A stretch of DNA of 46,013 bases from an uncultured Lachnospiraceae bacterium (GTDB lineage: Bacteria; Bacillota; Clostridia; Lachnospirales; Lachnospiraceae). The stretch's first letter is position 1. The number at the start of each line of letters is the position of its first letter. The position numbers and the translations under genes were made by a program. Under the pieces are notes generated by a model, which ran no database searches, was not told the origin of the DNA, and saw only the letters and a program-made list of their open reading frames with translations. Positions 58 to 44,597 of this stretch are shown in pieces. The stretch spans positions 1-46,013 of the forward strand of contig CANRMF010000011.1 of the NCBI GenBank assembly GCA_947631665.1, given 5' to 3'.

Positions 58-93
58 CTACTTTTTTTATCTTTTTTGGATTTTTCAACCAAA

Positions 94-182
94 CGGAGAA
101 GGAGGGATTTGAACCCTCGCGCCGCTATTAACGACCTACTCCCTTTCCAGGGGAGCCCCTTCAGCCACTTGGGTACTTCTCC
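94..182 (-). tRNA. tRNA-Ser (anticodon GGA)
   Basis: The reverse complement folds as a class II (long variable arm) tRNA of 89 nt. Acceptor GGAGAAG pairs with CTTCTCC, discriminator is G, and the T-arm contains GGTTCAAATCC. The anticodon stem CTCCC/GGGAG encloses CTGGAAA, giving anticodon GGA for UCC/UCU serine codons. CCA is not encoded. It is the second gene of a tandem pair of serine tRNAs. Confidence 0.95.
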
Positions 183-216
183 AAGCAGTTGACGAAATGT
201 TGCTTTGTACTATAAA

Positions 217-301
217 CGGAGAAGGTGGGATTCGAACCCACGGTGGTATTACCCACACTGGTTTTCAAGACCAGCACCATCAACCACTCGGACACCTCTC
301 C
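217..301 (-). tRNA. tRNA-Ser (anticodon TGA)
   Basis: The reverse complement gives a class II tRNA of 85 nt. Acceptor GGAGAGG pairs with CTTCTCC including one G-U, and the T-arm has GGTTCGAATCC. The anticodon stem CTGGT/ACCAG encloses CTTGAAA, giving anticodon TGA for UCA-type serine codons. It is the first of two serine tRNAs, separated by 34 nt, probably cotranscribed from the promoter at 332-360. Confidence 0.95.
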
Positions 302-331
302 GTAGCACCGCTGTTCACAGCGTGCTTGAAT

Positions 332-5602: not shown

Positions 5603-5677
5603 TTCACATCTTTTGTCGTCGCTGCACAATCTAAATCACGTAATGCGGTAAACAAAACGCTTATGATTGCGCAGTAA

Positions 5678-5800
5678 TATCTTCTCTCATCCAGACTATA
5701 CTGTCGGTTATGGAATCTCACCATATCATGCCCTGCGGCTCGCTGACTTATGCTCTCGCAAATACAGCCGGTGGGGAATTGCGCCCCGCCCCGAAGAATT
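5678..5800 (-). promoter_or_regulatory. FMN riboswitch (RFN element)
   Basis: The minus strand shows the conserved order of RFN blocks: CTTCGGGGCGGGG, AATTCCCCACCGGC, GAGAGC, GGTGAGATTCCATA, CCGACAGT, and AGTCTGGATGAGAGAAG. P1 is TCTTC with GAAGA. In this family FMN binding stabilises the aptamer and lets a downstream terminator form, turning off riboflavin uptake. The terminator at 5576-5602 and the ribU gene follow directly. Confidence 0.96.
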
Positions 5801-5824
5801 TTTCAATTTTTATTTACATACCAT

Positions 5825-7318: not shown

Positions 7319-8521
7319 TCAGCTTTCAATACGGATTCTGGAAATGACGTCTCCAAGCATTTCCGCTTTCTTTGCGAATTCTTCTTCGCTCATCTTGTCC
7401 GTAATAAATCCGATTTCTCCCGAAATGCCGGCGTCAACAAATTCCACGCTGCCAAAGGCCGTTTCGATTTTCTCCGTATCTGCGCCTGTCCGCACAAAAA
7501 ATTTCTTTTTGGACTTTGCAAAATTTTCCAGTTCCAGTTTTTCTTCAGACCACATAACCGTAGTTGATACATTCAGATGTCTGACGCAATCCACAACGTC
7601 TGAAACCACTGCGCTGGCCGTCGGAAGACTTCCCGCACCGCTGCCGATAAATACCAAATCGCCCACCATGTTTCCACGTACTAAAATCCCGTTAATGACA
7701 TCATTGACATTATAAAGCGGGTGTTCCGGAGAAAGTAGTCTCGGTGATACGGAAGCAACAATGGCATTTTCCTCATTTTTACACTTGCCGAGAAGTTTAA
7801 TGGATTTGTTCATCTTTTTTGCATATTTGAAATCCTGCGCTGTGATTTTTGAAATTCCTTCTGTATAGATTTCTTCAAAATCAACCGTCTTTCCGTTTGC
7901 AAGAGACGCCAGAATAGCAATCTTGCGGACGGCGTCGAACCCTTCAATGTCTGCTTCCGGATTTCTCTCTGCATAACCCAAATCCTGCGCCTGCTTTAAA
8001 GTGCTGTCAAAATCAGCGCCTTCCCTGTCCATTTTGGTCAATATATAGTTTGTCGTTCCGTTAAGGATTCCTGTAATTTCCTGAATTTTGTCAGCGGTAA
8101 TGTGCATATTTAACGGACGGATAATCGGGATACCACCGCCGACTGCCGCCTCAAATAAGAAGTTTCTGTTTTTTTCCTGAGCAATCCGAATTAACTGCGC
8201 GCCGTATTTTGCCACAAGTTCCTTGTTGGAGGTGCAGACACTCTTTCCTGCCTCCAGAGCTGCCCTGACAAAATCATAAGCAGGCTTGAGACCACCCATC
8301 ACTTCAATAATAACCTCCACTTCCGGGTCATTTAAAATGATATCATAGTCATGCACCAGTACCGGTTCGCAAGGATCTCCCGGAAAATCCCTCAGATCCA
8401 AGACATACTTAACGTCCACTTCCTGACCGGCTTTTGCAGTAATAATATTACTGTTTTCTTTCAAAATTTTAAAAACGCCGGAACCAACCGTTCCATATCC
8501 TAAGATTGCTACTTTAATCAT
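7319..8521 (-). CDS. hom: Homoserine dehydrogenase
   Basis: Reduces aspartate semialdehyde to homoserine using NAD(P)H. The Rossmann motif GYGTVG is at 8-13, and the catalytic region contains VGGGIPIIRP, LNGTTNYIL and GFDAVRKIAILA. At 400 residues it carries a shortened C-terminal ACT-like tail. AGGAGG lies upstream of the ATG. A promoter is visible at 8633-8661, and structured element A lies just beyond. The downstream neighbour is aspartate kinase, supplying the same pathway. Confidence 0.94.
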   Translation of the reverse strand: MIKVAILGYGTVGSGVFKILKENSNIITAKAGQEVDVKYVLDLRDFPGDPCEPVLVHDYDIILNDPEVEVIIEVMGGLKPAYDFVRAALEAGKSVCTSNKELVAKYGAQLIRIAQEKNRNFLFEAAVGGGIPIIRPLNMHITADKIQEITGILNGTTNYILTKMDREGADFDSTLKQAQDLGYAERNPEADIEGFDAVRKIAILASLANGKTVDFEEIYTEGISKITAQDFKYAKKMNKSIKLLGKCKNEENAIVASVSPRLLSPEHPLYNVNDVINGILVRGNMVGDLVFIGSGAGSLPTASAVVSDVVDCVRHLNVSTTVMWSEEKLELENFAKSKKKFFVRTGADTEKIETAFGSVEFVDAGISGEIGFITDKMSEEEFAKKAEMLGDVISRIRIES

Positions 8522-8661: not shown

Positions 8662-8686
8662 CAAATTTTGACTCCCAGTTTTGCCG

Positions 8687-8750
8687 ATATAAAAACAAAC
8701 CCCTGTAATGGGGTGCTTGCACACCAATAATCTGGGGTTTGTTTTTATAT
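8687..8750. terminator. Long hairpin of element A, bidirectional terminator-like
   Basis: Arms 8687-8703 and 8734-8750 pair perfectly over 17 bp around a 30-nt loop. The arms carry an A-tract on the left and a T-tract on the right, so either strand would look like an intrinsic terminator. It could end prfB transcription. The loop contains GGTGCTTGCACACC. Confidence 0.75.
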
Positions 8751-8761
8751 TTGGCGGAACC

Positions 8762-8930
8762 GCCTCAGCGAGAAGCAGCGAAGCGGATTCGAGCTGGCGG
8801 CAAAACTGGTGAAGAATTGCCTCAGCGAGAAGTAGCGAAGCGGATTCGAGCTGACGGCAAAACTGGGAAAGGATTGCCTCAGCTAGAAGCAGCGAAGCGG
8901 ATTCGAGCTGACGGCAAAACTGGGAAAAAG
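8762..8930 (+). repeat. 57-bp tandem units of element A
   Basis: Three consecutive units begin at 8762, 8819 and 8876, exactly 57 nt apart. Cores vary at one site (C, T, C) plus a G-to-T in unit 3. Because 57 is a multiple of three, frames stay open on both strands, creating spurious ORFs with repeated KRIRADGK-like or LESASLLLAE-like peptides. Confidence 0.9.
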
Positions 8931-8938
8931 GAAAATTG

Positions 8939-10048
8939 CTATTTTCCGGAATTGATCCAGCGGAGATAAGCGTTGGTGAACGGCTCAAGGTATCCGTCGA
9001 GTACTTTTCCCACATCTCCCACTTCTTCGTTGGTACGATGGTCTTTTACCATTGTATATGGCTGCATCACATAAGAACGGATTTGATTTCCCCAGCCAAT
9101 CTCCTTGACTTCGCCGCGAATTCCTGAACGCTTTTCTTCTTCTTCCTGCCTTTTTAACACATACAATTTTGATTTCAACATCTTCATGGCGCGGTCTTTG
9201 TTCTGCAACTGGGAGCGCTCATTCTGACATTGCACTACAATTCCCGTAGGAATATGAGTAATCCGAATGGCGGAAGATGTTTTATTGACATGCTGCCCGC
9301 CGGCGCCACTGGAACGGTATGTATCCACGCGAATTTCATCATCTTTGACTTCAATTTCTATATTGTCGTCAATATCCGGCATAACATCGCAGGATACAAA
9401 TGAAGTCTGACGTTTTCCGGCGGCGTTAAACGGCGAAATTCTCACCAGACGGTGCACGCCCTTTTCGGACTTCAGATAGCCGTAAGCATTTTCTCCGGAA
9501 ACCTGAAATGTAATCGACTTAATTCCCGCCTCGTCTCCGTCCAGAAAATCAAGCACTTCCGTTTTATATCCTTTGGACTCTGCCCATCTGGAATACATTC
9601 GGAACAACATCTGCGCCCAGTCACAGGACTCTGTTCCACCGGCGCCCGCATTGAGTTTGACGACTGCATTACATTTATCATATTCTCCGGAAAGAAGTGT
9701 CTGGATTTTTACCTGTTCAAAATGCTCTATAAAAGCTTGAAGCTCTGTCTCCACCTCAACGACAATCGAACTGTCTCCTTCTTCATCGCCCATTTCAATC
9801 AGCACGCCCAAATCTTCATATTGATTTTCCAGAGTTTCTATAATTTCCAGATTGCTTTTCACATTTTTTAATTCCTGCATTTTTTTCTTGGAACCTTCGA
9901 TATCCTCCCAAAAGCCCTCTGCTTCCATTGCTGTCTCAATTTCTTTAATCTGCTCTTTTTTCTTTTCTACCTCAAAGGTTTCTTTCAGTTCAGCCAACTG
10001 TTCCTGATAGCCTGACCACTGATATTTATATTGCTCTAATTCAACCAA
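8939..10048 (-). CDS. prfB: Peptide chain release factor 2
   Basis: RF2 terminates translation at UGA and UAA. The 369-residue protein has the GGQ peptidyl-hydrolysis motif in SGAGGQHVNKT and the SPF stop-codon recognition tripeptide in RISPFN. The start is probably TTG at 10048 (MVELEQYKYQW), with AGAGGT upstream. No ATG in this frame is credible. There is no programmed frameshift: the frame is continuous. A CTTTGA hexamer remains at the usual site, read in frame as ACC-TTT-GAG. It follows secA by 73 nt. Confidence 0.93.
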   Translation of the reverse strand: MVELEQYKYQWSGYQEQLAELKETFEVEKKKEQIKEIETAMEAEGFWEDIEGSKKKMQELKNVKSNLEIIETLENQYEDLGVLIEMGDEEGDSSIVVEVETELQAFIEHFEQVKIQTLLSGEYDKCNAVVKLNAGAGGTESCDWAQMLFRMYSRWAESKGYKTEVLDFLDGDEAGIKSITFQVSGENAYGYLKSEKGVHRLVRISPFNAAGKRQTSFVSCDVMPDIDDNIEIEVKDDEIRVDTYRSSGAGGQHVNKTSSAIRITHIPTGIVVQCQNERSQLQNKDRAMKMLKSKLYVLKRQEEEEKRSGIRGEVKEIGWGNQIRSYVMQPYTMVKDHRTNEEVGDVGKVLDGYLEPFTNAYLRWINSGK

Positions 10049-10121
10049 AACAATACCTCTTTCTTTATTTTTATAACGGAAAGAACAGGGGCGGATAAAC
10101 CCAACCCCTGCTTTTTTCTTT

Positions 10122-12692
10122 TTATGCTTTTCTTCCACAGCAATTCTTATACTTTTTACCACTTCCACAAGGGCATGGATCATTTGGATATACCTTTTGT
10201 GAAGCACGCTGCTTTGGTTTTTTCACACCGTCATCATCTTTGTTGGTACCGGTTACCTGAGCGACTTCTTCTCTTTCCACTTTCTGCTCAACCTGTACAT
10301 GATATAAGGTCTTCACCGTATCCAGCCGGATATTGTAAATCATGTTGTCAAACATTTCAAAGCCCTGAATTTTGTACTCAACAGCCGGATCCCGCTGGCC
10401 ATAAGCGAGAAGGCCGATGCCCTGTTTCAACTGTTCCAAATCGTCAAGATGATCCATCCATTTCCGGTCAATGACCTTCAACAATACAATCCGCTCTAAT
10501 TCACGAATCTGTTCCGGCTCGGCAAACTCGCTCTCCTTATCTTCATAGAGCTGCACTGCCTTTTCCTTTAAGAGCTGGACAAATTCCGCCTTGCTCATGT
10601 TGCGGATTTCACTTTCTTTAACGCCCAGCTTCATCGGGATAATCTCAAACAGAGATTGATTCAGTCCTGCCAGATCCCAGTCTTCCGCACGCTGGTCGTC
10701 GCGAAGGAACTGGTTTACCTGAGTCTCGATGATTTCATTGACCATTTTCATAATGGCGTCGCGCATATTCTCACCGTTTAAGACTCTGGCTCTTTCTGCG
10801 TAAATAATTTCCCTCTGGTCGTTGTTGACCTTATCATATTCCATCAGGTTCTTTCTGATACCGAAGTTATTTCCCTCAATCTTCTTCTGCGCTCTCTCGA
10901 TTGTTTTTGTCAGCATCTTGTGATGAATTTCCTCATCTTCCGGTACGCGGAGCGCATTGAACACAGACATCATCTTTTCAGAGGCAAACAGCCTCATGAT
11001 GTCGTCCTCTAAAGAAATATAAAATTTAGATTCACCGATATCTCCCTGTCGTCCGGAACGTCCGCGTAACTGATTGTCAATACGTCTGGATTCATGCCGT
11101 TCTGTACCGATAATCTTTAATCCGCCCGCTGCCTTTGCTTCGTCGTCCAGTTTAATATCCGTACCACGTCCTGCCATGTTGGTTGCAATCGTAACAGCGC
11201 CATGCTGTCCTGCCTGAGCGACAATCTCGGCTTCCATTTCATGGAACTTGGCGTTTAACACTTTATGAGGAACACCCTGTTTTCTGAGCAGAGCACTGAT
11301 TTCCTCAGAAGAATCAATATTGATGGTGCCAACCAGAACCGGCTGGCCTTTCTTGTAAGAAGTCACAATATCGTTAATGACCGCCTGCAGTTTTCCCCTG
11401 CGCGTCTTGTACATTGCATCTTCGTGGTCAATTCTGGCAATCGGTTTGTTGGTCGGGATTTCCACAACGTCCATGCTGTAAATGTCCCGAAATTCCTTTT
11501 CTTCCGTCAGCGCAGTACCGGTCATGCCCGCTTTCTTTTCATATTTGTTAAAAAAGTTCTGGAAGGTAATTGTGGCTAACGTTTTGCTTTCCCTGTTGAC
11601 TTTGACATGCTCTTTTGCCTCAATCGCCTGATGAAGGCCGTCAGAGTAGCGGCGTCCCGGCATGATACGCCCGGTAAATTCGTCTACAATCAGAACTTCT
11701 TCGTCTTTTACCACATAATCCTGATCACGATGCATCAGATTGTGGGCGCGGAGAGCCAAAATCACGTTGTGCTGCAATTCCAGATTTTCAGCGTCCGCAT
11801 AGTTATCAATATGGAAGAATTTTTCTACTTTTTCAATTCCCTGCGCTGTCAACGTCACAATCTTATCCTTTTCATTGACAAGGAAATCTCCATCTTCTTC
11901 AATATCCACGCCCATAATCGCGTCCATCTTACTGAGTTCCGGTTTTGCCGTACCCCGTTCCAACTGTCTGGCAAGAATATCGCACATCTCATAGAGTTTT
12001 GTCGATTTTCCACTCTGACCGGAAATAATCAGCGGCGTTCTCGCCTCGTCAATCAGAACGGAATCGACCTCGTCGATAATACAGTAATGCAGACCTCTCT
12101 GCACCAACTGCTCTTTATAAACCACCATGTTGTCTCTCAGATAGTCAAATCCAAGTTCGTTATTGGTAATATAAGTAATGTCGCAGTCATATGCCTGCTT
12201 CTTTTCTTCCTGCTCCATATCTGCCAGCACACAACCGACCGTAAGTCCGAGCGCTCTGTGTACCTGTCCCATCCACTCCGCATCACGCGTGGCAAGGTAT
12301 TCATTGACCGTTACAATATGCACGCCTTTTCCTTCCAAAGCATTTAAGTATGCAGGCAGAAGACAGGTCTGCGTTTTACCTTCACCGGTCTTCATCTCAG
12401 CGATACGTCCTTCGTGAAGAATAATACCGCCCTGAATCTGACATGGATAATGCTCTGTTCCGAGAATCCTGCGGGTTGCCTCACGCACAAGCGCGTAAGC
12501 CTCCGGAAGGAGATCTTCAAGCGTTTCTCCCTCTGCCAGCCGGCTTTTAAATTCCTGCGTTTTCGCTTTCATTTCCTCATCACTGAGTTTTTCCATTTCC
12601 GGCTTCAGACTTAATACTTTTTCTACTGTTTTCTGATGTCGTTTTAATTCCCGTTCACTGTGTGAACCTGCTATTTTACTAATTACGCTCAT
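10122..12692 (-). CDS. secA: Protein translocase ATPase SecA
   Basis: SecA drives preproteins through SecYEG, which the many exported proteins in this window need. The 856-residue protein has Walker A KTGEGKT (101-107), the [14 protein letters not shown] helicase segment and the [12 protein letters not shown] motif. It ends with the zinc-binding [13 protein letters not shown] tail that contacts SecB or phospholipid. AGGAGA precedes the ATG. Length and tail indicate the housekeeping SecA1. Confidence 0.97.
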
Positions 12693-22279: not shown

Positions 22280-22421
22280 AATTCAGCCATGACAGCTCGA
22301 ATCCGCTTCGCTTCTTCTCGCTGATTTGGGGTTTTCCTTCTCTCAAATATAATTCAGCCATGACAGCTCGAATCCGCTTCGCTTCTTCTCGCTGATTTGG
22401 GTTCCCCAAATACATAAAAAA
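22280..22421 (-). repeat. 71-bp tandem units of element B
   Basis: Two units, 22351-22421 and 22280-22350, are 71 nt apart. The 32-nt cores are identical to each other. The linker between them on the minus strand contains ATTTG...CAAAT, a loose version of the short hairpin. Since 71 is not a multiple of three, the two cores fall in different frames. Confidence 0.85.
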
Positions 22422-22477
22422 CGTAACGATGGGGAAATCCTGCAAGCAGTCTTTCCCCATCGTTACGTTTTTTATGT
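22412..22477. terminator. Long hairpin of element B, bidirectional terminator-like
   Basis: Arms 22412-22437 and 22452-22477 are perfect reverse complements over 26 nt. The loop is 14 nt and includes CTGCTTGCAG on the minus strand. Six A in one arm and six T in the other make it a credible terminator in both directions. It probably ends the nrdD-TSCPD transcript. Confidence 0.8.
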
Positions 22478-22502
22478 GCATGGCTGAATTACATAATGCA
22501 CA

Positions 22503-22760
22503 TTATGCCTGCGTTTTTTCGTATGCCTGCCGTACTGCCTTTGCAAGCTGGTCTGCACACGATGTTGATTTTACTCCGCAGAGATTTCCGCTTAGTTTTT
22601 CTTCAATCTGGTCGACGGTCATACCATCTACCAGTTTGCCAATCGCTTTCAGGTTTCCATTGCAGCCTCCCTGAAACTGAACATTGGATATAACATCATG
22701 ATCAATGTCAAATGTAATTGTGGTCGCGCAGACCTGTGATGTTTTATAAGTATACTTCAT
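22503..22760 (-). CDS. TSCPD domain protein
   Basis: An 85-residue protein of the TSCPD family (TIGR03905-like), a domain also found at the C terminus of some ribonucleotide reductases. The name motif is present as TSCAD (66-70). Other cysteines (11, 33, 61) suggest metal or redox chemistry. I chose ATG 22760 with AGAGGG upstream; the frame is open 33 nt farther. It lies 45 nt after nrdD in the same direction, consistent with an accessory role in deoxynucleotide synthesis, but the function is not known. Confidence 0.85.
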   Translation of the reverse strand: MKYTYKTSQVCATTITFDIDHDVISNVQFQGGCNGNLKAIGKLVDGMTVDQIEEKLSGNLCGVKSTSCADQLAKAVRQAYEKTQA

Positions 22761-33086: not shown

Positions 33087-34029
33087 AATGTTTGTACCTC
33101 TCTCTCTTTACTATGAAAATTATAATGACAATAATAAATCCAACCAGTATCATCATTACTATTTCTTTTAGTTTTAACCCTGTAAAAAAATTATTATTCT
33201 TGCTTTGACCAACAATATCATTTTTGTCTTCTTCCGCATCTGTCTCTTTTACGGTTTCAATTTGAACTTTATAAGCCTGCTTAATTATTTGAAAAACTTT
33301 ATCTGTTCCTAAATCATTTAATATATTTATATCCCTATTCTGCTTTTCTTTATTGTTAAAAAATTTTTTAATAATTTTTTCCTTATCAGATTCTGATATT
33401 CTCTCTATATTCTTATCTTTTATAAAGTCATTTACAATTGAAACAACATTTTTCTTTTCAATCTCATTTTTTATAATCCCTATGTCATTTTCCCTTTTTG
33501 CAGTTTTAAAATATACATCCTCTTTTTTCGGAACAATATTTGTTGGTTGTTTTTCATTGATAACAAAATCTTCGCATTCTAAAATAACCTCTTCATAATT
33601 TTCATTAAATGTATCTGGTCTGCTATAAGAAATATCAAGCTTTATTTCCTGTTCTTTTTTTTCATTTATTGAAATCCCAATAATGAAAATTTTTCCATCA
33701 TCTTTTATTTCTTTAGAATAATTCCAGAGAACATCAAAAAAATTATCCTTACGATGAATTTCATGATTATCTGAAAAAGTACCTTTTCCAGTGATTTCTC
33801 CTCGGGAGATGGAGTTTATTTCTACTCCATCTCCATAAGAAATACTCATTTTGAATCCCATTAATCCGGGATTATTTTTTATATCGACAACCATCAAATA
33901 AGAATCTGTATCTGTTTTTATAAACTCAGAAATTTCTACCTTAGGCATCTCAGATGCTCTTGTTATTACGACACTGCAATGGGTTATCAATAATACTGCT
34001 GTTATAAAAGATATTAATTTTTTCATCAT
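33073..34029 (-). CDS. Membrane-anchored cohesin protein
   Basis: A 318-residue protein with signal peptide (about 1-25). Its cohesin-type domain (about 28-160; MVVDIKNNPGLMGFKMSISYG, GTFSD, GKIFIIGIS) parallels that of the next gene. A Lys/Glu/Asn-rich linker (about 165-280) leads to a single transmembrane helix (about 285-307) and a basic tail (KRERYKHYEKK). It would hold a dockerin partner at the outer face of the membrane. The start overlaps the upstream dockerin gene by 4 nt. An ATG three bases later is equally possible. Confidence 0.82.
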   Translation of the reverse strand: MMKKLISFITAVLLITHCSVVITRASEMPKVEISEFIKTDTDSYLMVVDIKNNPGLMGFKMSISYGDGVEINSISRGEITGKGTFSDNHEIHRKDNFFDVLWNYSKEIKDDGKIFIIGISINEKKEQEIKLDISYSRPDTFNENYEEVILECEDFVINEKQPTNIVPKKEDVYFKTAKRENDIGIIKNEIEKKNVVSIVNDFIKDKNIERISESDKEKIIKKFFNNKEKQNRDINILNDLGTDKVFQIIKQAYKVQIETVKETDAEEDKNDIVGQSKNNNFFTGLKLKEIVMMILVGFIIVIIIFIVKRERYKHYEKK

Positions 34030-37000
34030 AAACTTTCTTTTCCCACCAAGTATCTGGACACCATTGATGCATCTTTATTATCCACATTTCCGTCGCCATT
34101 TACGTCAGATGCCAACTGTGACTCATACGAAAGTTCTTCCTTTTGAATGAGCCAATTGCTGATTTTACTTACATCAATATTTCCAAGATGCCCGTCTCCA
34201 TCCACATCACCTGTCATCACAATGGTCATTGTGTCTAAGACTTCATCACCAGACATCAGTTTTACCACAGTTCCAGTTCCAACAAGTTCATCACTCATGA
34301 GTTCCTGTCCACCTCCATTATATACTTTCATAACTTCCGGCTCATTGTTGAACTCTGTCAGCACTTCTTCTACTGTATTATGTCCCGGCTTTATCTCTCT
34401 CAGATATCCTTCTGAATCAATTCCTAACCCAGATTTTTCATTGAGTACAATGGATGTCTGATAATCTCCAACAACCTTAACAGTACATTGTGCACTTTCC
34501 CCGGTGCTATCCACAGTTATACTGATAACAGCCATTCCAACTGACTGTGCATAAATCACGCCATCCGAATCGACTTCAGCAACTTCAGGATTATTGCTCG
34601 ACCATGTGATATCCGTATCTGAAAGATTTTCCGGTGAAACCGTTGCTGTCAATTTACTGTATTCTGTCCCTTCAATAATAGTAATCGAGTTTCTGTTTAA
34701 TGAAACCGTTGCATATTCGTTTTCAGGTAGATACTTTGCTGTTATGTTCAGATTTTCCGTAACAGCTAAATAATCACTGCTGTCCCATCCGGTAAATACA
34801 TATCCATCCTTTGGCGTAACTTCAGGTTCCTCCGCACTTGCTCCATATGTTACTGTCTGTTGACTTATAACACTACCCGAATCATCCAAAAATTTTACAA
34901 GATATTCTTTTGGATTATAATGCGCATATAAATTCATACTTTCTGTAATTGGTTCTGATGCATACTCAAACTCATCTGTCAGCTCTTCATTCAAAAATAA
35001 TCCTACAAAGTTGTAACCCTCTGTTGTTTCAAATTCAGATATTTGTAATAATGTTGAATCTTTAATTAAAGTTTGATAGAAATCCCCTTCCTGTTCAGCA
35101 ACATCATTATAAATTGTTACCACATGATATGGAGCTCCTGATGTTTCTGTATTAATTGCATATAATTCCACAATTTGCTCACTATCATTTCTTCCCATAG
35201 AACATGCATATGCTTTCAATGTACAGGACTTTGATAATGTTATCGGCTGTGTATATTCAATTGCAGAAGCCGATGTCTTTGGATTTGTTCCATCAATTGT
35301 ATAATAAATAACTGCATTTTCCGTTTCAGAAGATAGCATAACTGTCTGATTGCTGTCATATTCACCTGTTGCAATATCTGCAGTTGGAATATCAGTCGTC
35401 TCGTTATATTCATACACTGGATAAATAGTCATGTCATTTGCAATTTCGTTTCCGGAAATATATTCCCCTGTAGACGCATTCTTCCATCCATAAAAGATAA
35501 TATTGTCATCTTTATTTAGTTCTTCTTCATATTGATCCAACGGCAGTAAATCACCATATTCATATACTTCGGATTTAACTGAATAATCATCCACCAGTTC
35601 TTCAACATCTTGACTCTCTTCAAGTTTTTCTTCTATCTCATCCGGATGATCATCTGTCAGAACATTTAATACATATTTTTCATATTCATATTTTGCAGAA
35701 ACAACCATGTCCGAAGTTACTTTATTTCCTGCTTCCACATATTCTTCTAATGTCTGAGCATTTTCTTCATTTCCATTCCCGATGACCCATGATACTGTCA
35801 CTCCTTCTTCTGTTTCTGGGATATCAGGTATTTCAATGTCACTTCCGTATTCTTCTTTTTTAATTTCTACAATTCTGTTCTCCCAGTCTACATATACAAC
35901 AGAATATTCATTTTCTTCATACATAGCTGTGACTGTCAGATTATCATGCACACCTACTGTCGACTGGCTCCAACCCACAAAATGATATCCTTCCTTTTTT
36001 GGAATTTGCGATTCATCAGGAAGAACTGCACTTTCTCCCTCAGCAACTGTCTGCGTACTAATAATCTGCTTTTCAATAGTACCATCCAAATCTACAGATT
36101 TTTCAATATCAAAAACTACACTATATTGTCTCTTAGGAGCCTCAATCGTTCCAATAACAACTGCATTGGTTTCACCCTCAAATGCTATCGCGACCGTAAA
36201 ATCCCCTGTCTTTTCATTGCATTCCTCTCTCAGCTGAATGTTAGAAAGATCAATTTCACCACTCTGACTTACAATTGAGCTTCCCATATACTCTGCATTT
36301 GAATCTGACATTTCATCGTTTTTATAAATATATACTGTTGCCTTCTTTCCAGAATATTTTGGTGCTGAATCTATATGAATTCTTTCCTTATCAATATCCG
36401 ACACCTTATTTTTATCCTCATGTGATACGACTGTTTTTGTCTTGTATGCATACCATTGAACTACATTGCTGATTGTTTTATCTGTAGTCTGATAGAGGCT
36501 TAGCTTTCCTTTATAAGGTTCTTCTATTTTCTGAGCTCCAGTGCTACTGTTCTGTGGTACAGTCGCCACCGAATCTGCTCTTAACCCAGTCTGTACTGTA
36601 CTATTACTGTACGTATAAACTTTTCTTTTTATAGTCCAGTCTCTCTGGTATGCTGTAATTTTTCCAATCCAGAATTTTGAATCCGTACACTTATCTCTAT
36701 AGTTTGCTGCTGTCCTATTTGTATTATATTCATACACATTTTTCTTGAGATTTGACAAGCTGCAATAATACTGATTTAATGCATTAGCTGGGGACAAACT
36801 GTGACAATGAAAAGTATCATATTTATTTCCACTATCAGCGGAGTGCCATCTTGAGCCAACCACATTATGGTCTATCTTCCCATTATTCCTGTTGCAGCAC
36901 CAATGATAATAGATATAATCACAAGGGGTATCCTTAATCTCTGTCTTTTGAATACTATCCTCTGATGCCTTTACCCACTGTGATTCCGGTAAATAATACC

Positions 37001-39338
37001 GACTATAAATATACTTTCCTGCACCACTGTTTTTGTTATATTTACTGCCCATTGCCGTTCCAATTGTCGGCCAGCTTTTTACAAACTTCTGTGTCCCGCT
37101 CTCAACGACTCCAGACCATTTTGATGAAATAAGACTGAAGCCCGGCATAGTTGTACTTAACGATTCTTTTGTAATCGTTGTCGTTAAATCATATGTTACA
37201 TAATTATCTTTATCTGTTCCTTTAATTACGTCACTTCTATCCAATATACTTTTATCTGTAGTGTATTTCCACTCATCCGCATTTGCATCCACTATTTGTT
37301 CTGTATCGGTCTCCACATCTGATATTGTTCCGGAAGATTTATAATTATTTACTACATAAACTTCAATTTTAGATGCCAATGCTTCTGATGTTGTTACCTC
37401 ATATGGGACAAAAACATTAATATCTTTACTGGTCTCCACATTCTCCTGTGTATATAATACAAATGCGGCAGATTCCGTTTCAATCAGCATTCTTCCAGCC
37501 TCTGTCTTTAATGCAGCAACAACCCTTCCTCTGATAATTGGATTTTTTGAGCCTGATTTTAGGGCAGGTGCTGTTACCGTTACATCAATACTGTACCCGT
37601 CTGTTCCATCTGTGGATTTTCCAGTACTTGATGCTCTCTTGACGGACTTTATTTTTGTCACAACCTGATTGTCACTATCCCATTCATATCTCGCATAAAT
37701 AGCATGATTGTTCGTATTATTTAGTGTATATTCCTCTTCGCTCCACCCGACAAACTTATAATTTTTGTGAACCGGCAGTTCCTGTGTATAATATTCAGAC
37801 ATTCTAATTACTGAATCATAAGGTTCCTTTGATTCTTTCAACACAGTGTTATCAATTCCGTCGATTACTTTTATTGTATACTTATTTGCTGTCCAAACTG
37901 CTGTATAATTCTCACTAGATAATATATTTTTTATATCTGTTGAAGCAGCAATCACTTTTCCTGTAGTTTGATTTTTCCATCCATTAAAAGTATATCCCTC
38001 TCGCTTTGGTGCCGCAGGAGTCTTTGTCGAGGAATGATATATTACTGTTTTTATTTCCGGTTCTGAGCCTACTATCCCACTGTCAAATGTAATTCTTAAA
38101 TCGCTCATAACTGTAAACTTTACTGTTTTTTCGCTTGAGCTTCCTGAAGAATTGACAGCGGTTATGCTCACGGTATACTCACCCGGTTCAGTAATTGCAT
38201 TTGTGGTATATGAAATATTAGTCAATCCCTTATTTGTTGCAGTTGGGTATACTAATGCCCCTGAACTGTTTTTTACAGAGATTTTATATGAATCTGCCGA
38301 TGATGATTGTTTCCAACTAATAGTTGCCTTTCCACCTCTACCTATTTTACTTTCTTTTACACTAATGCCTGATACTGCTGAAGGAGGATTATTTTTTGTT
38401 GTGAAGCTAGATGGCGTAGAATCCGAAGATATCATCCAACTTTCATCAACTAATGCAACCATTTTATAGTAGTATGTAGTACCAGCTTTCAAACTGATTT
38501 TATAACCATTCTGCGTTTTCTTCTTTGTATCAAAAGAAAAATTTTCTATCTTTGTCTTTTTGGCATTATAATTCAACAGATAATACTTGTATCCACCTTT
38601 ATTTTCGTGCTTCGTACTCTTTGTAATCTTCTTTATTTCACTTTGTGATGTTCCGTAAAATACTCCTACTTTTTCTACAGGTGCTTTTGGGCTCATCTTT
38701 AAGTTGAATGTAACGCTGTCCCTTGTAACATTAGATGTGGAGACTTGCTTGATTTTATAATAAACCTCTTCATTATAATAATGGTATTTAATCATTGATG
38801 AAAGAGGATTAATTGCCATATTTCGTCCAACCTGATCACAATCCGGAGTTGTTGCCTTACCTTTCATGACTCCAAAATGTAAATGCGGACCTGTTCCTAC
38901 TCCTGTCTTACCAGATAACGCAATCTTTTCTCCGCTCTTCACTGACTGTTTTTTCGCCACACTATATTTTTTTAAGTGTTGATATAAAGTAGATAAATTC
39001 AACTCTTTGTGATAAATGACAACAAAGTTTCCTCTTGCTGAAGAGTATCCTACTTTTGTCACTACTCCTTTTGCGGCGGCATAAACTTGTGTCCCTTCTT
39101 TGACACCAATATCAATCCCTCTATGATTGGTTGAAGCTCCTGAAGTAGGTTGTGCTCTATACCCAAAAGATGATGTTATTTTTCCTATTGCTCTAGCACT
39201 TTTTGCAACTGGCCAACATAATTGATAATTAGATATCGCACCTTCTACTATTTTTATTGCATTTAAGTTGATGGAGCATAGCATTACTGTAAAAGATAAA
39301 ATAAATGCTCCCGTTTTCTTAATTAGTTTCTTCTTCAT
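34026..39338 (-). CDS. Giant secreted M23 peptidase with dockerin
   Basis: A 1770-residue exported protein. After the signal peptide (about 1-33) comes a LytM/M23 zinc endopeptidase (about 40-190) with His72/Asp76 (HRGID), His121 and His152/His154 (HLH). Two Fn3-like domains (about 200-410) and InlB-type repeats follow. Next is an unusual Trp/His/Cys-rich region around 808 (YIYYHWC), a CHB_HEX-type segment (about 1345-1415), a Big_2 Ig-like domain (about 1540-1625), a pre-dockerin module and a type I dockerin (about 1708-1770). The dockerin has two calcium loops, DVDGDGHLGNID and DVNGDGNVDNKD. It overlaps the upstream gene by ATGA. Confidence 0.9.
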   Translation of the reverse strand: MKKKLIKKTGAFILSFTVMLCSINLNAIKIVEGAISNYQLCWPVAKSARAIGKITSSFGYRAQPTSGASTNHRGIDIGVKEGTQVYAAAKGVVTKVGYSSARGNFVVIYHKELNLSTLYQHLKKYSVAKKQSVKSGEKIALSGKTGVGTGPHLHFGVMKGKATTPDCDQVGRNMAINPLSSMIKYHYYNEEVYYKIKQVSTSNVTRDSVTFNLKMSPKAPVEKVGVFYGTSQSEIKKITKSTKHENKGGYKYYLLNYNAKKTKIENFSFDTKKKTQNGYKISLKAGTTYYYKMVALVDESWMISSDSTPSSFTTKNNPPSAVSGISVKESKIGRGGKATISWKQSSSADSYKISVKNSSGALVYPTATNKGLTNISYTTNAITEPGEYTVSITAVNSSGSSSEKTVKFTVMSDLRITFDSGIVGSEPEIKTVIYHSSTKTPAAPKREGYTFNGWKNQTTGKVIAASTDIKNILSSENYTAVWTANKYTIKVIDGIDNTVLKESKEPYDSVIRMSEYYTQELPVHKNYKFVGWSEEEYTLNNTNNHAIYARYEWDSDNQVVTKIKSVKRASSTGKSTDGTDGYSIDVTVTAPALKSGSKNPIIRGRVVAALKTEAGRMLIETESAAFVLYTQENVETSKDINVFVPYEVTTSEALASKIEVYVVNNYKSSGTISDVETDTEQIVDANADEWKYTTDKSILDRSDVIKGTDKDNYVTYDLTTTITKESLSTTMPGFSLISSKWSGVVESGTQKFVKSWPTIGTAMGSKYNKNSGAGKYIYSRYYLPESQWVKASEDSIQKTEIKDTPCDYIYYHWCCNRNNGKIDHNVVGSRWHSADSGNKYDTFHCHSLSPANALNQYYCSLSNLKKNVYEYNTNRTAANYRDKCTDSKFWIGKITAYQRDWTIKRKVYTYSNSTVQTGLRADSVATVPQNSSTGAQKIEEPYKGKLSLYQTTDKTISNVVQWYAYKTKTVVSHEDKNKVSDIDKERIHIDSAPKYSGKKATVYIYKNDEMSDSNAEYMGSSIVSQSGEIDLSNIQLREECNEKTGDFTVAIAFEGETNAVVIGTIEAPKRQYSVVFDIEKSVDLDGTIEKQIISTQTVAEGESAVLPDESQIPKKEGYHFVGWSQSTVGVHDNLTVTAMYEENEYSVVYVDWENRIVEIKKEEYGSDIEIPDIPETEEGVTVSWVIGNGNEENAQTLEEYVEAGNKVTSDMVVSAKYEYEKYVLNVLTDDHPDEIEEKLEESQDVEELVDDYSVKSEVYEYGDLLPLDQYEEELNKDDNIIFYGWKNASTGEYISGNEIANDMTIYPVYEYNETTDIPTADIATGEYDSNQTVMLSSETENAVIYYTIDGTNPKTSASAIEYTQPITLSKSCTLKAYACSMGRNDSEQIVELYAINTETSGAPYHVVTIYNDVAEQEGDFYQTLIKDSTLLQISEFETTEGYNFVGLFLNEELTDEFEYASEPITESMNLYAHYNPKEYLVKFLDDSGSVISQQTVTYGASAEEPEVTPKDGYVFTGWDSSDYLAVTENLNITAKYLPENEYATVSLNRNSITIIEGTEYSKLTATVSPENLSDTDITWSSNNPEVAEVDSDGVIYAQSVGMAVISITVDSTGESAQCTVKVVGDYQTSIVLNEKSGLGIDSEGYLREIKPGHNTVEEVLTEFNNEPEVMKVYNGGGQELMSDELVGTGTVVKLMSGDEVLDTMTIVMTGDVDGDGHLGNIDVSKISNWLIQKEELSYESQLASDVNGDGNVDNKDASMVSRYLVGKESL

Positions 39339-42300
39339 ATCTGCTCCTTTCCTACCAAGTATCTGGATACCATTGATGCATCCTTATTATCCACATTTCC
39401 GTCGCCATTTACGTCAGATGCCAACTGTGACTCATACGAAAGTTCTTCCTTTTGAATGAGCCAATTGCTGATTTTACTTACATCAACATTTCCAAGATGC
39501 CCGTCACCATCCACATCGCCTGTCATCACAATGGTCATTGTGTCTAAGACTTCATCACCAGACATCAGTTTTATCACAGTTCCGGTTCCAACAAGTTCAT
39601 CATCCCTTAGTTCCTGCCCTGTCGAATCATATACTTTCAAGTTTTCCAAATCGTTATTGAATTCTGCAAGTATATTTGCCACCGTGTTATGTTCTGGTTT
39701 TACTTCTCTCAGATATCCTTCTGAATCAATTCCTAACCCAGATTTTTCATTGAGTACAATGGATGTCTGATAATTCCCAACTACTTTAACAGTACATTCT
39801 GCATTTTCTCCTGTGCTGACAACAGTTGCAGTAATGACTGTCGTACCTGCAGCTTTTCCTTCTACAACTCCGTTTACATCAACTGTAGCTATATCCGGAT
39901 TCTCGCTATCCCAATCAATTTCAGTATTTGATAACTCTTCCGGAGAGATGGTTGCCGTCAATTTGCTATACTCCGTCCCTTCCATAATAGTTACCGTCGA
40001 TTTATTTAACGCAACTGTTGCATATTCATTTTCCGGCACATACTGCGCAGTAAATGTTCCATCTTTCATCATACACAAATATTCATCAGAATCCCAACCG
40101 ACGAAGACCTCTCCGTCCTTTTTTACTATTTCCGGCTCTTTTGCCGGTTCTCCAAAATCAACCGTCTGCCGTTCAATCTCTTTTCCATCTGAATCATTAA
40201 AAATTGCTGTGTATTGTTTTGGTGTATATTTTGCATACAAATTCAGAGATTCTGTAATCACTTCTGTATCTGTATCCAGTTCGTTTTCAAAGGTTTCATC
40301 GTAAAATATTCCGTCATATGTATATCCTGTTATATTTTCTAATCCAGACATATTGAACTTGGTTCCACTCTTAACCAATGCCTGATAGTAGTTTCCTTCC
40401 AATTCAGGTAAATTAGCATTGACTGATACTAAACAATACTCTGCCCCTGACGTATCTGTGTTGATTGCATATAATTCAGTACCTACTGAACTATTGTTCA
40501 TTCCCATTGCCATCGCACAAAAACTCAATGTTGCAGACTTTTCTAAAACAATCGGTTCTGTATATTCCCTTGCTGTCAGAGAATTTTCAGGATTTGTTCC
40601 GTCTGTTGTATAATAAATAACTGCATCTGTTGTTTCACAAGTTAGTTCAATTGTTTGTTTTGTCTGATATTCTCCTGTTTCGACGCTTGCTATTGGCATT
40701 TCTGCACTGTTTGCAAATTCATAAACCGGATAATAGACTCCGCTCTCATCTACCTGTGTGTCTTCTAAGTATTCCCCTGTTTCCAGATTTCTCCAACCAT
40801 AAAACAGATAATCCGGCGATTCTTCCAGTCCATTATCCGGAAGATCTACTCTATCTCCATCTGTTACCGTATCAGTCACGATATCTGAATCAACGAAATT
40901 ATTCTTCGCTTCATCCTGACTTTCTCCTTGATTTTCCTCGTAATAATCAACACATGGTTCATTCACGTTTTCTTCCACAAATGACACATCATATGTTCTT
41001 TCTTCATATTGAGTCGTAATTACAGTGTTTTTTGTTACAATGTATTTCTCGGAACTACTTCCATCGTCCGCTGTTTCTTCTATTTTTTCCGCATCACTCA
41101 TATCCCACGAAGTCACATATCCCTCTTTTTCTTGCGGTGTTGGTGGATTTATTTCCTCTCCATACTCCATTTCTTCGAGTTGGACATCCTGTTTTGCCCA
41201 ATCTACATAAACCACTACAAACTTCTTGATTTTTATCAGTGGGCGGACTACTATATCTCCCGTCACATTTACAGTTGATTCACTCCATGTTGTAAATTCA
41301 TACCCTTCAGGTATTCCCATTTCTTTTTCTGAATATGTAGGGGCAGTAACCGTGTCTCCTTCCGTTACATTTTTTATTTCCTGTAAAATATTACCGTTAT
41401 AATCCATATAAGTAACTGTATAAACCGGCTTCGGTGCCTCAATCGTTCCAATCTCTATTGCCTCTGTATTTCCCTCTATTGATGCAAGTATTTTAAAATT
41501 ACCAGTTTCGATACTTGTTGCTTCTCTCAGTTTTGCATTCGGAATTGATATTTCCCCATTGCTTCCAACTGTTGTCTTGCCGATAAATTCTGTTGTATAA
41601 TCTGATGTTTGACCATATTTATGCACATATACTGTAGCTTCTTTTCCCGCAAACTGAGAACTTACCTTTCCAGAAATATCGACCAATTGCTTATTGTTTT
41701 CCAATATCGGTTCTTCTACTTTTCCATTTGTCTTATATCGATAATATGTTGTTGTCTTGCCTGATACAGTCTGAGTTGCTACCTCTTTATCTGCTGAAGC
41801 CGTTACAGGCGTTTCGCTCCATGCTGACCAATCAGACCATTTATAATAATTAAAAAGTTTTTTATACGTAGTATACTTTTGTGTTTTTATCGTTACAAGC
41901 CCATTTGTTTTTGATTTTAGTCCATTCCACCAATAAGTATCATTACAGACATCTGTTTTCTTCCACTTATATGCATTTGCAGAATCTGTATATGATTTTT
42001 TCGTACTGCTCTCAAACGCATGGAACTTTTTATATGTTGAACTCTTTTTCCATTCTATTGCACGGTTTATTGCTCCAACACTGGCGCCCCTGCACCAATG
42101 CCAGTAAATATATGATTTTACTGTATCTGAATTAATTGTCACTTTTGTTGTGTTTGTTTCAGATGCACTTTTCTTTGTATTATGATATTTTTTATATAAT
42201 GAATTCCCTGTATCGAATCCACTTGGCCAACTTACACCATAATTAAGCGTAGATTGTCCCTGACTCACCCAAGAACCTCCGCTCTGCGTCCATCCGCTCA

Positions 42301-44356
42301 TTGATGTTGAATATGAAGTTGTCGTAGATTTCGTTCTGTATCTGTACTGTTTAATCTGTGGTGTATCACTCTTTGTTTCAACTTCGCTGACACCATTAAC
42401 ACCCTTTTCGACCGGAATTGTTCCAGTATATTCTTTCCATGCACTCCATGCAGAACTGTTATCAATTTCCTGCGTTAGTGGTTGTGCCAATGTTGATACA
42501 TTTTCATAATTATTTATTGTATATACAGAAACTTTATATCCCAAATCTTTAAAAGGTACAAATACCTTTATTGTCTTTTTTTCATCTAAAGAATCTTTCT
42601 CGGAAAGACTAAATGCAGATGATTCTGCTGTTGTATACATTAGTCCGTCCTTTGACTGAAGTGCAACTACAAGTCTTCCCTGCACTATCTCATTTTTTCC
42701 ATTTTGTACAGTTACAGTTATATCATATCCATCCTTGTTTTGATTTCTTAATACAGAATCAATCTTTGAATAAACCTGATAATTTTCGTTGTACCACTTA
42801 TAATTTGAAGTTACGATTGTATTCGTTTCTATTTTACTGAAATCTACATCCCAGCCAACAAATGTATATCCATCATGTATCAATTCACCTGTAGATGGTT
42901 CTGTCGCAGAATTTCCATATCTTACTTTCTGTACTTTCCCAATTTGTTTTCCGGTTAGACCATCTACAAATGTAACCGAATATTCATTTGCTTCATATAC
43001 AGTATTTACTGTGATGTCAGCGGTAACTTTAGAAAAATCTCGATCCCATTTAATAAATGTATATCCCGTTTGTGTTGGATTTTTTGGCGCAACGGCAGCA
43101 TGTCCATACGGTTTGTTCTGCACACTGATATTCTTTTTACTGATAGTATCGTAAAAAGTTATATTGACATTTTTATGTATTGTAAACGATTTGCTATTTC
43201 CTGCTTTTGTATCCGTGTATGAATTACTTGCATATAAATTAATTGTATATGTTCCTGTTTTTGAAGTACATGTTGCAGGTATTGTACAACTGGTACCGGT
43301 TATCTTTTCTTTGGAATATATTTGTGCATTACTACTATCGTATACTTTTATTTTATAATTGTTCGCATTTGCTACTTTATTCCACGTTACAGTCACCGTA
43401 TCACCCAACCCAATATTTGAATAGGCAGAAGACATATTCAAAGTCGGTTTTGCCGGAGCATCTTTTCGTGTAGTAAATTTTCCATCAGCCTTATAAGTTT
43501 TTCCTGAAATTTTCACCCATATTCTATATGAATAAGTGGTTCCCGGTTTTAAATCCTTTCCCTTATACTTTGATATTGTTGCCTTAAATGATTTCTGTGT
43601 TACAGAAGTTCCACATGTTTTCACTTCATCCCTTGAGGATGTTCCCAAATCGTATCCCCATGAAGTAACTTTTGCTGATTTGTTAAGACTTGCACTAATG
43701 GTTGCTGTCGTGTTTGTGGTAGTTGGAGAATTTAAAGTCAATGCGTATGACTGACTATTTGATAAATGAATTGCATATACTTCTTTTATGGAATATGGTG
43801 CCTGCGAAGGTGCATAACTTTGTTCCATTTTTCTACTATTATGAGCATAAAAAAGAAGATTCCCATTCTTATCCTTTTTCCCTGAATATATAACCGCATG
43901 ACCTGAGGCAATAGTTGTATTTTTTGAAACTGCAATCACTACATCTCCTTTTTTTAAATTGTTCTTAAAATATGAATCTTTTAATGAAGTCCATTTTGAT
44001 GCAGAATCTTTTTCTCCATAATCCTGTAAAATAATGCCCAATTCCTTAGCAATTGCTACATTATATTTTGTGCCATTAGTTTTTTTCTTAGATACAGTCA
44101 AACCACCCTTTTTTAAACAATTATATACAAATTCGGCACATAACCATTTATCATTACAAGCGCCTATACCTTTTTTAGTATTCGGATGGCTTTTCTTATC
44201 GCTATTACAGTGTTCTTTTGCAAAATTAATTGCTTTATCCACATCATATGTAAACGTCTTGGCCTCTACCTTTCTTACCTTCATCTCTGGCATAACTGTA
44301 CAGATTAATGCTATCGATAAAATAACAGACAAACATTTTTTAATGATTACTTTCAT
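39335..44356 (-). CDS. Giant secreted papain-fold amidase/peptidase with dockerin
   Basis: A 1673-residue exported protein. The N-terminal catalytic domain (about 35-197) has Cys73 (WLCAEF), His153 (SGHAV) and a GNLLFYAHN segment. This fits an NlpC/P60-CHAP-Amidase_6-like cysteine hydrolase. Fn3-like domains (about 205-390), InlB repeats (about 395-520), a Trp/Cys-rich region (about 632-875 with YIYWHWC at 748-754), further beta-repeats, a Big_2 domain and a C-terminal dockerin follow, collinear with the next gene. I chose ATG 44356 with AGAGGAG. It is a paralogue sharing the chassis but not the enzyme. Confidence 0.88.
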   Translation of the reverse strand: MKVIIKKCLSVILSIALICTVMPEMKVRKVEAKTFTYDVDKAINFAKEHCNSDKKSHPNTKKGIGACNDKWLCAEFVYNCLKKGGLTVSKKKTNGTKYNVAIAKELGIILQDYGEKDSASKWTSLKDSYFKNNLKKGDVVIAVSKNTTIASGHAVIYSGKKDKNGNLLFYAHNSRKMEQSYAPSQAPYSIKEVYAIHLSNSQSYALTLNSPTTTNTTATISASLNKSAKVTSWGYDLGTSSRDEVKTCGTSVTQKSFKATISKYKGKDLKPGTTYSYRIWVKISGKTYKADGKFTTRKDAPAKPTLNMSSAYSNIGLGDTVTVTWNKVANANNYKIKVYDSSNAQIYSKEKITGTSCTIPATCTSKTGTYTINLYASNSYTDTKAGNSKSFTIHKNVNITFYDTISKKNISVQNKPYGHAAVAPKNPTQTGYTFIKWDRDFSKVTADITVNTVYEANEYSVTFVDGLTGKQIGKVQKVRYGNSATEPSTGELIHDGYTFVGWDVDFSKIETNTIVTSNYKWYNENYQVYSKIDSVLRNQNKDGYDITVTVQNGKNEIVQGRLVVALQSKDGLMYTTAESSAFSLSEKDSLDEKKTIKVFVPFKDLGYKVSVYTINNYENVSTLAQPLTQEIDNSSAWSAWKEYTGTIPVEKGVNGVSEVETKSDTPQIKQYRYRTKSTTTSYSTSMSGWTQSGGSWVSQGQSTLNYGVSWPSGFDTGNSLYKKYHNTKKSASETNTTKVTINSDTVKSYIYWHWCRGASVGAINRAIEWKKSSTYKKFHAFESSTKKSYTDSANAYKWKKTDVCNDTYWWNGLKSKTNGLVTIKTQKYTTYKKLFNYYKWSDWSAWSETPVTASADKEVATQTVSGKTTTYYRYKTNGKVEEPILENNKQLVDISGKVSSQFAGKEATVYVHKYGQTSDYTTEFIGKTTVGSNGEISIPNAKLREATSIETGNFKILASIEGNTEAIEIGTIEAPKPVYTVTYMDYNGNILQEIKNVTEGDTVTAPTYSEKEMGIPEGYEFTTWSESTVNVTGDIVVRPLIKIKKFVVVYVDWAKQDVQLEEMEYGEEINPPTPQEKEGYVTSWDMSDAEKIEETADDGSSSEKYIVTKNTVITTQYEERTYDVSFVEENVNEPCVDYYEENQGESQDEAKNNFVDSDIVTDTVTDGDRVDLPDNGLEESPDYLFYGWRNLETGEYLEDTQVDESGVYYPVYEFANSAEMPIASVETGEYQTKQTIELTCETTDAVIYYTTDGTNPENSLTAREYTEPIVLEKSATLSFCAMAMGMNNSSVGTELYAINTDTSGAEYCLVSVNANLPELEGNYYQALVKSGTKFNMSGLENITGYTYDGIFYDETFENELDTDTEVITESLNLYAKYTPKQYTAIFNDSDGKEIERQTVDFGEPAKEPEIVKKDGEVFVGWDSDEYLCMMKDGTFTAQYVPENEYATVALNKSTVTIMEGTEYSKLTATISPEELSNTEIDWDSENPDIATVDVNGVVEGKAAGTTVITATVVSTGENAECTVKVVGNYQTSIVLNEKSGLGIDSEGYLREVKPEHNTVANILAEFNNDLENLKVYDSTGQELRDDELVGTGTVIKLMSGDEVLDTMTIVMTGDVDGDGHLGNVDVSKISNWLIQKEELSYESQLASDVNGDGNVDNKDASMVSRYLVGKEQI

Positions 44357-44597
44357 ATTATATACTCCTCTCAAACCATTCAATTTACCACTTATCACGC
44401 TATTACCCTAAACCATGCTTTACAGTCTTAGCAAAAAAGTTATTATGCAAAAAGCTAAAATTTAAATTTGATAAGTATTAAGATATACCTTAGTTTTCAT
44501 CTCGCACCAGATAAAGAAAATGATTTTTGTACCTTTTTCTCTCACATATCTTTTAAGTCTCACTGCACATTTCTATTTATCATAAAAAATGTGTTTT

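Follow-up and report, generated by a model that had tools for sequence, protein, structure and literature searches.

Elements A and B, two hairpin-rich elements in the window (the whole 46,013-nucleotide stretch of DNA analyzed, contig 11 of a 2.0-Mb genome that is 94% complete), belong to a real, mobile family whose structure is under selection, a miniature transposon that is probably a relative of the Rfam family Clostridiales-1. A and B are probably copies of a non-autonomous mobile element of ~137 bp that is sometimes kept as a structure at the 3′ end of an mRNA. As far as sequence can tell, such a 3′-end role is the best-supported function, and A itself does not lie in the favored orientation. 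The parts of the two elements are the following, with P1 to P4 denoting the helices of the fold.

8675..8686, plus strand: A, 5′ strand of P1, the left terminal inverted repeat CCAGTTTTGCCG, homologous to the terminal inverted repeat ACAGTTCAGCCAT
8687..8750, plus strand: A, P2, the long hairpin, with arms 8687-8703 and 8734-8750 and loop TGCTTGCA at 8714-8721
8753..8764, plus strand: A, P3, the short hairpin GGCGGAACCGCC
8766..8796, plus strand: A, P4, the conserved core hairpin, with tandem G.A and a GNA triloop
8798..8809, plus strand: A, 3′ strand of P1, the right terminal inverted repeat CGGCAAAACTGG
8814..8870, plus strand: A, second tandem unit (half of P3, P4, and right arm)
8871..8927, plus strand: A, third tandem unit
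22479..22490, minus strand: B, 5′ strand of P1, AATTCAGCCATG, with the TSCPD stop codon (22503-22505) 12 nt upstream
22412..22477, minus strand: B, P2, with 26-bp arms 22452-22477 and 22412-22437 and loop 22441-22448
22395..22411, minus strand: B, P3, ATTTGGGGAACCCAAAT
22364..22394, minus strand: B, P4, the core
22351..22362, minus strand: B, 3′ strand of P1, CATGGCTGAATT
22280..22350, minus strand: B, second tandem unit, which holds core 22293-22323 and another right arm

Element A holds one full unit of ~137 nt (8673-8810, plus strand). The original prediction had extended it over 8674..8930, but only 8673-8810 is a complete unit, and the remainder (8814-8927) consists of two truncated tandem units of 57 bp each (8814-8870 and 8871-8927). 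Tandem units, which also occur in B and in several copies of genome G176, appear to start at the apex of a hairpin, P3 or P2, and to end at the right arm. The outer arm of A pairs exactly over 12 bp with unit 1 and over 14 bp with units 2 and 3; the right arm first quoted for A, GGCAAAACTGGG, does occur, in units 2 and 3, while unit 1 carries GGCAAAACTGGT. The features described as common to A and B were confirmed, namely the 31- to 32-nt core, the TGCTTGCA loop (8714-8721 in A; 22441-22448, minus strand, in B), and the GGAACC apex, and the exact P2 arms of 17 bp in A and 26 bp in B can be read directly. The outer arms of A and B are not unrelated: CAGTTTTGCC of A and TTCAGCCATG of B are each a variant of the inverted repeat ACAGTTCAGCCAT of recent copies. 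In A, the repeat has undergone two changes that compensate each other, CA having become TT in one arm and TG having become AA in the other. An empty site in genome G011 keeps a GC-rich string resembling the left arm of A; this string could be a deletion remnant, or host sequence may have supplied the arm. Element A lies on the plus strand between prfB (8939-10207, minus) and the homoserine dehydrogenase gene (7319-8521, minus) and is antisense to both. Element B, on the minus strand, is flanked by a cupin-like open reading frame and by a TSCPD-domain gene that neighbors nrdD, all on the minus strand; it is in sense orientation and starts 12 nt past the stop codon of the TSCPD gene.

Compared with shuffled sequences, both elements fold strongly as RNA, with -65.5 kcal/mol for A (z -7.4) and -75.5 kcal/mol for B (z -12.6), values reached by 0 of 200 shuffles in each case. 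The folding energy alone cannot assign the strand, because folds of similar strength are obtained for the complementary strands (z -8.3 for A and -13.0 for B). The first loci searched contained 124 distinct copies of the core, of which 56 carry an exact arm of at least 7 nt at a distance of 80-108 nt upstream and share a common fold; as these were selected by the arm, their P1 pairing is by selection, and that of P2, P3, and P4 is not. The unsorted remainder of 68 includes tandem units lying downstream, copies at the ends of contigs, and copies with no such arm. Thus, the expectation that additional core copies would keep complementary arms was borne out in many more copies, but core copies without arms do exist.

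The 56 copies were reduced to 51 non-redundant ones, and 40 were aligned with MAFFT without the use of structure, 11 of odd length or arms being excluded. The 40 share one fold made of the closing stem P1, the long hairpin P2 with a CUUG-type loop, the short P3, and the core hairpin P4, with 72.5% of cells in the alignment paired. Changes on both sides were found in 49 of the 54 pairs (0/500 shuffles as high), and the covariation score was 0.292, compared with 0.132 in shuffles (0/500 reaching 0.292) and 0.09-0.16 when partners were slid, in agreement with the selected structure proposed at the outset. The core itself is helical, consisting of CAGC/GCTG, tandem G.A, GAA/TTC, a 3x3 purine loop, and then GC-GNA-GC, and its variants CACC..GGTG, CAGT..ACTG, and GAT..ATC retain the pairing. 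Diverged copies with the arms AATGAGTCACAT, TAATTACGAGCAA, and GTCCGGGC likewise kept P1 paired.

The mismatches bear on which strand is folded. Among 97 non-redundant copies (from 103 full-length ones among 128 model matches), isolated single mismatches in P2 were G.T 42 times and A.C 10 times (p 9e-6), with the reservation that the model search may slightly favor G-U; in the smaller set of 51 copies, G.T outnumbered A.C by 18 to 3 in P2 and by 5 to 1 in P1. This excess suggests that the plus strand is the folded strand, with wobble tolerated as in RNA. It does not exclude single-stranded DNA, because G.T is the milder mismatch in DNA too. The first 12 bases of the P2 arms are rich in A (A 630, T 204, G 194, C 136; 97 copies), so that the 3′ side of P2 is T-rich, as in bidirectional terminators.

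Several observations show that P1 corresponds to the terminal inverted repeats of a miniature transposon. GTAACAGTTCAGCCAT stands at the start of recent copies and its complement at their end, and genomes G176 and G060 contain near-identical copies with different flanks whose ends read GTTACAG or GTAACAG and CTGTAAC or CTGTTAC. The 13-nt end repeat occurs 81 times in G060, 55 times in G176, 27 times in G013, once in G068, and not at all in three other genomes or in the reversed control. Besides the terminal inverted repeats expected of a miniature inverted-repeat element, recent copies have decayed 8-bp target duplications, seen at the level of the family only. The flanks match in a single register, the 8 nt directly outside the ends, with a mean of 3.78/8 compared with 2.97 in permutations (p 5e-5, n=32, uncorrected for the 70 registers scanned). 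When the eight positions were scored separately (n=35), six were clearly raised and two barely, and neighboring positions were near background. The best repeats match at 8/8 (L234/L304) and 7/8 (L237/L307 and L275), and many copies at 2-5/8. Internally deleted copies (L271-L275) retained both ends, and a 196-bp variant of the element recurs.

Insertion sites differ in their occupancy. The infA-rpmJ locus was recovered in 19 of the 23 genomes of the genus and was readable in 17, of which nine contain the element and eight lack it; P4 is decayed in two of the nine copies (L143 and L144). The prfB-hom site, where A lies, is occupied in 1 of 21 loci, that of its own genome (the model search covered 14). 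No parent insertion sequence with the same ends was found at IS66 loci or at exact 13-mer positions in seven genomes, no facing pair of exact 13-mers 1-4 kb apart was present among the matches listed (which for G060 are a minimum), and the contig ends and clusters read showed no autonomous parent with exact ends. IS66 elements have an 8-bp duplication and GTAA ends. An IS66 transposase is present in 4 of the 10 genomes searched and absent from G000, the window's own genome, and from G013, and at the IS66 loci read the matches to the inverted repeat were chance-like only; IS66 is at best a candidate mover of the family.

The family is widespread. In named genomes the exact core was found in 28 stretches, 16 of them titled Lachnospiraceae and 12 titled Eubacterium, Eubacteriaceae, Eisenbergiella, Lachnoclostridium, Faecalicatena, Darwinimomas, Clostridia, or just bacterium. 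A 31-nt core pattern with up to three mismatches was present in 20 of 144 relatives (reversed control 0). The family model, which had no match at E <=1 in a control of 30 loci (99.7 kb), matched 151 of 250 genomes of the window's bacterial family at E 1e-3 or better; copy numbers from this search are lower bounds, as up to 13 candidates were scored per genome, and its weakest matches could be copies of Clostridiales-1. Rfam at its cut-offs named none of 20 family elements scanned, a literature search with the exact core gave no match, and the literature matches listed for MITEs contained nothing on the family. A curious pair of hairpin elements has thus become a family in more than half of the sampled genomes that the Rfam cut-offs missed in the loci scanned.

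The original prediction knew of no matching family, and this needs revision: the family is probably a distant relative of Clostridiales-1 RNA (Rfam RF01699; Weinberg et al. 2010, PMC2864571), judging from scores below the cut-off and reciprocal model matches. The Clostridiales-1 model scored 27.2 bits on A (gathering cut-off 48), 32.5 bits on L008 (one of 17 sources, at E 0.05), and 44.2 and 41.9 bits on L145 and L059 (two of 10 sources); none of the 20 elements scanned at the cut-off reached it, and 5/20 wider loci scored 31-39 bits. The best score in all the searches made was 44.2, so that the gathering score was reached in none. Rfam miRNA models scored 26-41 bits on the same hairpins and were taken as chance matches to the long hairpin. 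Homology to Clostridiales-1 is therefore no more than likely, because the long hairpin earns bits by itself. In the reverse direction, 11 of 30 Clostridiales-1 loci were matched by the family model at E <=1, with 12 matches in total (best 2e-4; control 0/30), one of them (L119, E 0.28) on the opposite strand; the model aligned the core with the Clostridiales-1 hairpin GA-GNAAGNAGC...GCGGATT-GA. A copy at the infA site (L146) has a longer inner stem, GTGC-GAA-GCAC, as in Clostridiales-1. Clostridiales-1 matched 136 of the 250 genomes, 109 over the cut-off, and the two families occur together in 99 (p 1.6e-5, relatedness uncontrolled).

Clostridiales-1 is itself a miniature transposon. The Rfam match is contained in an inverted-repeat element of 183-210 bp, GATRCCAGGGTCAAAAG...CTTTTGACCCCWACATC (L108-L137 and L242-L257), whose right end lies ~30 nt beyond it. 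In the 32 copies with both ends found among 46 loci, the 7-bp duplications are perfect in 18 and match at 6/7 or better in 21; none of 20,000 permutations was as high, and positions outside the seven were at background. An Rfam "sRNA" of unknown function thus lies inside a transposable element, and no paper placing it in one was found in the literature on its name or RF01699. A strongly covarying structure can thus turn out to be a mobile element. The two families appear to resemble each other in the closing stem, in P2 with its GCUUGC loop, and in further hairpins with GNA-type loops, and both are inverted-repeat elements. They differ in their ends (GTAACAGTTCAGCC in the new family, GATRCCAGGGTCAAAAG in Clostridiales-1) and in the length of the duplication (8 bp and 7 bp, respectively), and the new family lacks the last hairpin of Clostridiales-1 and has the extra short P3. 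By eye, P2 of one copy of the new family (L276, G060:C7:30680-31100) seems to contain a nested insertion, a short hairpin that resembles Clostridiales-1 and has ends of its own. Elsewhere, a Clostridiales-1 copy directly adjoins a Y1 transposase match with an internal stop codon (G049:C29:36699-37232).

The infA site shows how copies change in place. Among six distinct copies (15 pairs), identity is 0.80 in P4 (shuffled 0.52) and 0.54 in the P2 arms (shuffled 0.47), and 27-34 Watson-Crick pairs are kept in each P2. Of the six, the copy in G007 differs in its arms and could be an independent insertion. Wholesale replacement of P2 was considered because the family copies L022, L025, and L026 have P1, P3, and P4 in common and P2 hardly, and was rejected: at infA the identity of P2 is near that of the most variable infA codon position (range 0.50-0.85), so that drift with compensation suffices. 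In several species the right arm at this site also pairs, by eye, with the stop-codon region of the host gene.

Gene context was scored by a simple script for 100 of 118 copies (open reading frames of at least 80 codons on both sides), of which 69 have diverged ends and 31 have consensus ends. Within 15 nt of the modeled P1, a sense stop codon is present in 27/69 diverged compared with 3/31 consensus copies (Fisher p 0.004), a contrast of old and recent copies that is confounded with genome, the consensus class coming mostly from G176, G060, and G013. Antisense stops within this distance number 3/69 and 2/31. The stop codon overlaps P1 (-3) in five diverged copies, and none of the 100 has a sense stop 16-47 nt from P1. 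As one and the same gene may carry a copy in more than one species, such copies do not count independently, and homologous genes were merged into clusters, which left 21 sense and 5 antisense clusters within 15 nt (p 0.0025). The other 70 copies are not stop-adjacent in sense.

These data can be read in several ways. A purely selfish miniature transposon would use its hairpins for transposition or to limit the harm of insertion, and the pairing in old copies would be kept by correction of palindromes during replication and not by host selection. The inverted ends with flank repeats, the ends retained in internally deleted copies, and the low stop adjacency of consensus-end copies (3/31) agree with such an element. 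However, P4 offers no palindrome to correct and is conserved at infA while P2 drifts, and the excess of G.T over A.C (42:10) and the sense bias at stop codons also speak against it; we regard this explanation as rather unlikely. An independent gene for a trans-acting small RNA, as Rfam types Clostridiales-1, is improbable. It would account for the strong conserved fold, and PMC2864571 lists Clostridiales-1 as probably RNA and not cis-regulatory, but a simple scan found no promoter-like site around A, the neighboring genes are not fixed, and 30 of the 100 copies start at the stop codons of sense genes.

The suggestion of a REP-like transposase substrate was correct as to kind, given the inverted repeats and flanking duplications, and failed as to the REP-like part. 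REP/BIME sequences, which are associated with RAYT, are dispersed intergenic palindromes near gene ends, as in this family, and GNA triloops and YTTR loops also form stable structures in DNA; together with the favored strand, this would suit single-stranded DNA used by a HUH (Y1) transposase. Such a substrate is nevertheless very improbable, and REP/RAYT was rejected: a Y1 match is absent from the element's own genome, Y1 occurs in 83/151 genomes with the family compared with 60/99 without it (p 0.43), and to our knowledge flanking duplications are not expected of HUH elements. Unlike REP/BIME, the family has no Y1 partner, has inverted ends with duplications, and folds into a four-way structure. 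A template for a retron-like reverse transcriptase is scarcely credible; the closing arms and long variable hairpin recall the msr-msd outline of retrons, but the present elements occur in many scattered copies that have inverted ends and flank repeats.

The preferred reading is thus an element that is mobile and is sometimes retained at mRNA 3′ ends. The inverted-repeat ends form the closing stem P1 around an interior of three hairpins whose pairing is kept by compensatory change, and a putative DDE-type transposase may move the family in trans. Strand and position bias suggest that copies landing in sense just behind a stop codon are preferentially retained. We propose that they are kept because the plus strand, once transcribed, would form a four-way junction where the mRNA ends, serving there as a termination or 3′-end stabilizing device, with P2 terminator-like and P4 a conserved motif that something may bind. 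If P2 does terminate transcription, P3, P4, and the second strand of P1 would be made by read-through only. Points against this role are the antisense position of A relative to both neighbors, the 70 of 100 copies that do not adjoin a sense stop, the decayed P4 of two of the nine infA-site copies, and a pattern scan around A that found one terminator-like site compared with 0.6 expected, a chance level. Should some copies indeed have such a function, the family would present in nature the successive stages between a new insertion and a recruited RNA. A broader reading is possible and offered tentatively: a single structured RNA module (CUUG-capped P2 and tandem-G.A/GNA hairpin) may be carried by two or more families of miniature transposon that differ in their ends and target duplications, may have spread through many Lachnospiraceae, and may have been repeatedly domesticated as a sense mRNA 3′-end device with P1 at or overlapping the stop codon and its stems rewritten by compensatory change.

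Among known systems, BOX elements of Streptococcus pneumoniae, as described in PMC3049150, are likewise small, modular, interspersed mobile repeats with a tandem internal unit; their inverted ends pair in the RNA fold, and they may affect co-transcribed genes. The host differs, and the likeness is one of description. In the present family, unlike BOX as described there, the 3′ part with the right inverted repeat is what occurs in tandem, and the ends diverge and yet stay paired.

Other features of the window include an FMN riboswitch (5675-5802, minus strand, 107 bits), an adjoining pair of tRNA-Ser genes (93-302, minus strand) with anticodons GGA and TGA, and two very long adjoining open reading frames of 1770 and 1687 codons (34026-44398, minus strand).
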